The position numbers and the translations under genes are program-made. Below are positions 20,959 to 21,602 of a stretch of DNA of 45,750 bases, piece by piece. The stretch's first letter is position 1, and every line of letters begins with the position of its first letter. The notes under the pieces were generated by a model, which did no database searches, was not told the DNA's origin, and saw only the letters and a program-made list of their open reading frames with translations. Location: NCBI GenBank assembly GCA_025965975.1, contig JAOPVX010000201.1, positions 1-45,750 of the forward strand, in the 5' to 3' direction. This DNA comes from Mycobacterium sp. (GTDB taxonomy: Bacteria; Actinomycetota; Actinomycetes; Mycobacteriales; Mycobacteriaceae).

Positions 20959-21602
20959 ACCAACCTCGTCGCGCCAAAATCGAACGCAAGACCAAGGAAT
21001 CCGACATCGTCGTCGAGCTCGACCTCGACGGCACCGGCATCGTCGACATCGACACCGGCGTGCCGTTCTACGACCACATGCTGACCTCGCTCGGCAGCCA
21101 CGCCAGCTTCGACCTGACCGTGCGCGCCAAGGGCGACGTCGAGATCGAGGGCCACCACACCATCGAGGACACCGCGATCGTGCTGGGCCAGGCGCTTGGT
21201 CAGGCGCTCGGGGACAAGAAGGGCATCCGCCGGTTCGGTGACGCGTGGATCCCGATGGACGAGACACTCGCCCACGCGGCCGTCGACGTGTCGGGCCGGC
21301 CGTACTGCGTGCACACCGGCGAGCCGGAGCACCTGTTGCACACCACGATTGTTGGTGCTCAGGTAGACCCTCTTCGCGCAAGCGGCTCATCGGCGGCGCC
21401 CTATAACACCGTGATCAACCGTCATGTCTTCGAGTCGCTGGCCATGAATGCCCGCATCGCGCTGCACGTGCGCACGCTGTATGGGCGCGACCCGCACCAC
21501 ATCACCGAGGCGCAGTACAAGGCCGTCGCCCGCGCGCTGCGGCAGGCCGTCGAGTACGACCCGCGTGTCACCGGCGTGCCATCCACCAAAGGCACATTGT
21601 GA
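20955..21602 (+). CDS. hisB: Imidazoleglycerol-phosphate dehydratase
   Basis: 215-residue manganese enzyme that dehydrates IGP to imidazole-acetol phosphate. Metal-binding His clusters are seen in EIEGHHTIEDTA and the later RDPHHITEAQYKA; PFYDHMLTSLGSHASFD and GRPYCVHTGEPEH are also conserved. The GTG start overlaps the hisC stop. Between HTTIVG and PYNTVINRH it carries about ten more residues (AQVDPLRASGSS) than M. tuberculosis HisB as I remember it. These are encoded by a reversed copy of the junction repeat (21371-21395). The His ligands are intact, so the enzyme is probably active. Confidence 0.96.
   Translation: MNQPRRAKIERKTKESDIVVELDLDGTGIVDIDTGVPFYDHMLTSLGSHASFDLTVRAKGDVEIEGHHTIEDTAIVLGQALGQALGDKKGIRRFGDAWIPMDETLAHAAVDVSGRPYCVHTGEPEHLLHTTIVGAQVDPLRASGSSAAPYNTVINRHVFESLAMNARIALHVRTLYGRDPHHITEAQYKAVARALRQAVEYDPRVTGVPSTKGTL
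21371..21395 (-). repeat. Junction repeat copy inserted in frame within hisB
   Basis: Read on the minus strand, this is GATGAGCCGCTTGCGCGAAG followed by AG, the same core as at 3803 and 9782 apart from one extra C. On the plus strand it encodes PLRASGSS. It lies exactly where HisB has extra residues relative to the family. Confidence 0.8.

Follow-up and report, generated by a model that had tools for sequence, protein, structure and literature searches.

A short dispersed repeat lies antisense and in frame within hisB of a mycobacterium

Repetitive extragenic palindromic (REP) elements are short, dispersed and have hairpin features. Rickettsia palindromic elements (RPEs), about 150 bp long and falling into ten families, are described as inserted in frame into unrelated protein-coding genes, metabolic ones included, where they add a peptide to the product (PMC10969869), and mycobacterial interspersed repetitive units (MIRUs), attributed to 'many mycobacteria', are located at start codons and provide a mini open reading frame (mini-ORF) that overlaps both neighbouring genes and serves their coupling (PMC12548453); the MIRUs of senX3-regX3 have units of 53 and 77 bp and are given as present in M. 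leprae and the M. tuberculosis complex only (PMC4213456), all as far as the available parts of these sources go. Here we describe a window, meaning the whole analysed stretch of 45,750 nucleotides from a Mycobacterium sp. (contig JAOPVX010000201.1), in which the gene hisB carries, antisense and in frame, a copy of a short dispersed repeat, called the element below.

Like RPEs, the element stands in frame within unrelated genes, judged for HisB and HisC by homologues in which the site is empty, and for GlmM, GuaA and others by frame and domain position; unlike RPEs, it is built of units of 29-33 nt, a size that sets it apart from that family, it is frequent at gene junctions as well, and it prefers one antisense frame. 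With MIRUs it shares the nature of a short mycobacterial repeat at start codons and a mini-ORF layout for coupling, read from the arrangement of the sequence, but its unit is shorter than either MIRU unit of senX3-regX3 and it also occurs antisense and inside genes, the comparison being one with the description of MIRUs rather than with their sequence. According to our analysis the element combines the start-codon layout of MIRUs with the in-frame insertion of RPEs, while its size fits neither.

The insertion in hisB

The hisB gene (20955..21602, + strand), which encodes imidazoleglycerol-phosphate dehydratase of 215 aa, starts with a GTG that overlaps the hisC stop, and its own stop overlaps hisH. 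Its open reading frame (ORF) is intact and conserved: PF00475 of Pfam matches the product, and the NCBIfam model NF002110, whose cut-off is 266 bits, scores it at 354.4, the insert notwithstanding. It is the single HisB match of its genome and is 11 residues longer than the M. tuberculosis HisB chains 7fcy and 4gqu. Alignment across mycobacteria, using relatives with GSQAPYHT, defines the difference as a 33-nt insertion in codon phase 0 (21363..21395, + strand) that encodes VDPLRASGSSA, its edges being uncertain by one base or one codon. The initial annotation, made from the sequence of the window, had seen about ten extra residues here, AQVDPLRASGSS; the insert exists, but it counts 11 residues, and the A and Q of that string fit the host loop.

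The insert consists of a copy of the element. A class B copy with closing pairs CC...GG occupies 21363..21396 on the minus strand, antisense to hisB, and the exact 22-mer core GATGAGCCGCTTGCGCGAAGAG lies at 21370..21391 of the same strand, in agreement with the earlier description of this DNA as the reverse complement of the core of a junction repeat. It is the sole match when up to three mismatches are allowed. The covariance model R1, which was built from 45 copies of one other genome (G147), places the hisB copy (21396-21363) at the top of the window ranking with 50.2 bits and, by a rough calibration, an E value of about 1e-11.

How far such a loop is shared was followed in 297 genomes of the genus, the own genome included, of which 293 gave a HisB match; 148 of the 297 were searched in a separate pass that completed the count. 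With the own genome left out, HisB is full-length in 290, represented by fragments only in 2 and absent from 4. By span length the form with 11 additional residues occurs in 0 of the 290, and it is therefore not a loop widespread in species that lack the repeat: 283 genomes have a span 33 nt below that of the window (in one of the genomes, two HisB copies each have this length), one lies 30 nt below (+1 residue) and six lie 21 nt below (+4). Span counts give length only, and the position of the difference could be read in 103 of 110 loci, a set that contains the own locus and in which some genomes are represented twice (the other 7 loci misfit the search expression); of the 103, 93 have the common length, 7 have one residue more, all of them Rhodococcus or Prescottella records, 2 have four more and the own one has 11 more. 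Both of the +4 loops lie at the spot of the window insert. In one genome (G021) the residues added at this spot are without relation to the element. When the element model was applied to the hisB loci of 37 relatives at E<=1, none of its 14 matches fell inside hisB, as 6 lie about 1.1 kb upstream and 8 about 0.6 kb downstream of it. Within the sample, the 11-residue insertion is restricted to the own genome.

Two other explanations should be weighed against these data. An ordinary length variant of HisB, resembling the repeat by chance, could draw on the mild length variation just described, and in particular on the two +4 loops at that very spot, but chance would have to produce an exact 22-mer that was found in 0 of 100 shuffles even at three mismatches, as well as 50.2 bits to a model from another genome, and we give this explanation practically no credit. 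A repeat misjoined into hisB during assembly is also very improbable: the assembly is a draft of 449 contigs, 93.4% complete and with 4.6% contamination, and one of its contigs (C5) ends within an element array, yet the insert is situated 21 kb into a contig of 45.75 kb, measures 33 nt, is in frame and belongs to the only HisB of the genome.

We hold it very probable, then, that in this lineage a short dispersed element has entered hisB in antisense orientation. It would have brought 33 nt, read on its antisense strand as ...DPLRASGSS, at a place where the length of HisB already varies slightly, and because the insertion brought 33 nt the frame was kept, as had been proposed when the element was said to enter the gene without a frameshift. 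The gene had also been called essential, which hisB is solely for growth without histidine. The insert probably forms a small, polar, flexible loop of 11 residues in the fold. Changes private to HisB, counted with three outgroups and the insert excluded, are 2 nonsynonymous to 10 synonymous in the window lineage and 2 to 8 in its sister lineage, M. hubeiense; by these small numbers, and with the insertion undatable on the branch, the window HisB appears free of signs of decay.

Spread, genomic context and reading frames

The dispersed repeat family is real. Its core CGCTTGCGCGAAGA has 73 exact 14-mer occurrences in the own genome against 0 for a reversed-pattern control, and 158 against 7 when one mismatch is tolerated; 208 of the 297 genus genomes contain the exact core once or more, with a maximum of 105 copies in G147. 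Among the candidates listed, up to 150 per genome, the model derived from G147 matches 135 in G147 itself, 69 in the own genome, 36 in G013, 1 in G075 and 0 in both G073 and G115; the HisB of G073 differs from the M. tuberculosis chains. In 121 genomes drawn from the order, 28 have the core, 6 of 10 within the genus and 22 of 111 outside it, mostly with few copies each. Several copies outside the genus sit, by eye, immediately before gene starts, and in other genera of the order (L332-L349) the element often adjoins a second repeat, ATGAGCGAGGATCGCAGCGAG and its variants, directly before a gene start, again by eye. We found no published description of the element, its core and the LRASGSS peptide included, in a search that covered the subscription literature thinly.

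Two length classes can be distinguished, A (GATGAGCGC) and B (GATGAGCCGC). The consensus of 59 first copies of the own genome is GATGAG(C)CGCTTGCGCGAAGAGCAGA, where the core itself was the search key and the set includes one probable chance coding match (L116) that was left out of the context, frame and pairing counts. A copy comprises a core of 20-21 nt with two closing pairs, and tandem units measure 29-33 nt: the array spacings in the own genome are 29, 30, 32, 33 and one of 66, the latter being two 33-nt units whose middle copy has two mismatches.

A codon-score classifier trained on the ORFs of the window was applied to the surroundings of 58 sites in the own genome and of 30 genus loci (each from a different genome, at the first listed place), the side being undecided for 27 own and 12 genus sites, with one at an edge. 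The commonest arrangement is sense orientation between codirectional genes (34 copies, 21 own and 13 genus); 6 copies are antisense between codirectional genes, 4 lie between convergent ones, and those inside genes are the hisB copy, which is antisense, and three sense copies, one own (L119) and two from the genus. The own sense copy is in frame in a crotonase ORF, but this segment varies in length in 6 fitting homologues, the inserted length cannot be fixed, and we discarded it as an insertion case.

Of the 34 sense junctions, 14 have an upstream TGA at core-4 and 21 a codon at +24 or +27 where the next gene could start, and where TGA at -4 is combined with ATGA at +27 a mini-ORF of 11 codons overlaps both flanking genes, the very design described for MIRUs (PMC12548453). 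One may ask on these grounds whether the element simply is a MIRU; we find this doubtful, as units of 29-33 nt stand against 53 and 77 bp in senX3-regX3 and the MIRU there is said, in the available part of the source (PMC4213456), to occur nowhere but in M. leprae and members of the M. tuberculosis complex. Among open sense cases, DERLREE is in phase with the gene downstream in 32 of 40 from the own genome and the genus, and DEPLARR is so in 15 of 22 from G147; in many of these cases a start codon comes after the element.

Antisense copies that open into a clear gene use the frame of LRAS in 8 of 10 own cases, in 3 of 3 genus cases and in 29 of 33 cases of G147, where 90 sites were considered, 55 without a clear gene and 2 with a stop before the element. 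Pooled, and with hisB among them, this makes 40 of 46 (7e-14 against 1/3), and since no antisense frame of the core, of the three, contains a stop, the bias is not forced by stop codons. An open frame through the element is not in itself proof of translation. In a GlmM of G147, which scores 582 bits to TIGR01455 (cut-off 447.55), the family model begins, from its first position, 2 residues behind LRASGSS, and the next in-frame ATG, GTG or TTG is 21 codons beyond the element; in a GuaA of another genome the model begins 5 residues after the element and the next such codon follows 27 codons beyond. Because neither protein has ATG, GTG or TTG between repeat and domain, translation through the element is the simplest reading for both. 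Of 40 antisense rows, L274 and L283 were left out because they concern a different copy at the same locus; among the remaining 38, the next in-frame start is at least 20 codons on in 11.

Further proteins extend the proposal that the element creates protein sequence beyond HisB. The HisC of G147 has an internal insert of 10 residues, DEPLARRGSS, absent from 9 homologues of the same genus among the matches listed, and in addition an N-terminal LRASGSS copy with a possible start after it; the inositol monophosphatase (L306) and prolyl oligopeptidase (L258) of G147 also seem, from the open frame, to have internal copies. Copies in the antisense frame are found at the N-termini of housekeeping enzymes, and a NifS-type cysteine desulfurase of the own genome (L117) has three tandem DALRASGSS/DALHASGSS units there. 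These frames support the view of the repeat as a dispersed element that acts as protein-coding sequence. The repeat also bears on the annotation of start sites, because start codons have to be chosen just where many of the LRASGSS segments are located. At two other loci (L101, on contig C210 of G000, and L081 of G212), 33-nt units, each with an ATG of its own, make up in-frame repeats at the N-terminus: one gene is preceded by MDEPLARRASG-like repeats, and another, which by eye resembles MbtH, by MSACAKRRPAP.

One could suggest that the peptide has an adaptive role, as a tag or regulatory tail whose frame is kept for function and not merely tolerated, as one frame prevails while all three are open and the copies are placed at the N-termini of housekeeping enzymes. 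We consider this rather unlikely: the named targets have no obvious common pathway, tolerance of a small polar peptide would explain the frame bias as well, and the HisB case is internal. It is likely, in our opinion, that selection keeps those copies that preserve the frame, at N-termini, start-codon junctions and loops.

Possible hairpin and mobilisation

The two bases on either side of GATGAG...GAAGA pair with each other. In G147 the first closing pair is formed in 80 of 85 copies (shuffle mean 41.9, maximum 57 in 2000) and the second in 48 of 85 (mean 31.2, maximum 43); for the genus loci the figures are 20 of 21 (12.1, 18) and 17 of 21 (10.6, 18), and for the own genome, where the first pair is nearly invariant, 35 of 38 (32.5, 36) and 29 of 38 (19.2, 28). 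Beyond these two pairs no excess of pairing was seen. Alignment A2 has 28 cells changed on both sides against 11.9 after shuffling, with slid controls lower, while the count of pairs with changes on both sides, at 2 against 2.0, is uninformative. Such covariation of the closing pairs suggests a small hairpin, as support and not proof, because related copies inherit their pairs; GAUGA would face GAAGA, a U-A pair would be flanked by tandem G-A pairs, and the loop would be CUUG. A search of 7 loci with Rfam 15 at E<=1 returned 7 matches (2 tRNAs and 5 weak ones), none at a copy of the element.

The element may spread as a single-stranded hairpin by means of a hairpin-recognising activity acting in trans, to which we would give an even chance. 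Like REP sequences with their REP-associated tyrosine transposases (RAYTs), it is short, dispersed and perhaps hairpin-forming, and the three matches to Y1_Tnp that the own genome contains, one of them weak, together with the covarying closing pairs, could speak for mobilisation by a Y1 transposase of the RAYT or IS200 type. Unlike those sequences, the element is often found in coding sequence and has no association with Y1_Tnp: of the 297 genomes 58 have this domain, G147, whose number of exact copies is the highest of all those sampled, is not among them, and by a hand count the core is present in 41 of those 58 against the 208 of 297 overall. Mobilisation by Y1 is accordingly improbable. 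A target-site duplication, which at 11 bp would explain the 33 nt, was considered too: in G147, 15 out of 82 single sites have flank repeats of at least 8, more than in a chimera control (mean 3.6, maximum 8), but the long repeats among them can be seen to be adjoining copies of the element that have degenerated, and the candidate was rejected.

Several observations weigh against the picture of a mobile, hairpin-forming and translated element. Neither a clear target-site duplication at the 82 single sites of G147 nor a mobiliser was found, and 'mobile' rests for that reason on dispersal and lineage-specific insertion, not on observed movement. The hisB insert is a single event in one draft assembly, with the function of the enzyme judged from its sequence. 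An in-frame start follows within four codons of the element in 11 of the 38 antisense cases, so that translation through it is not forced there, and 6 of the 46 open cases use another frame. Folding energies of the element are no better than those of shuffles, sheared G-A pairs being poorly scored, and the proposed hairpin is the minimum as RNA for 3 of 5 sequences, the hisB type not among them, and as DNA for 0 of 3.

With these points counted in, the wider proposal seems to us evenly balanced: a hairpin element of about 25-33 nt, spreading by a single-strand mechanism, would be compatible with coding, its sense copies serving as start-stop coupling units and its antisense copies providing conserved housekeeping enzymes with N-terminal DxLRASGSS tails or with internal loops, and the proteins of a whole species, such as that of G147, would have been repeatedly rewritten. 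In-frame mobile DNA in conserved bacterial genes is known from Rickettsia, as far as the available part of the source goes (PMC10969869); new here would be a far shorter element, in mycobacteria, with one preferred frame and in housekeeping genes. If true, the repeat is a small and little-known source of new protein sequence, and the origin and tolerance of new protein segments become testable by comparison of natural orthologues.

Other repeats of the window

Besides the hisB copy, the repeat scan and the model place a class A copy at 3798..3830 and a class A-like one (GATGAACGC) at 9777..9809, both on the + strand; these junction copies (3802 and 9781) are one C short of the hisB copy. An array of three 32-nt units in sense orientation (24568..24664, + strand) stands between a gene end and the next ATG, by eye the hisF-hisI junction. 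Two tandem copies of GATGAGCCTGTTGGGTGAGGAGC... at 5174-5242 may represent a sister repeat, which the GATGAGCCTCTTGGGCGAAGAG type seen at two other loci (L003 and L126) resembles. A long tract rich in E, A and P, with repeat steps of 9 and 15 nt, extends over 34540-35800.
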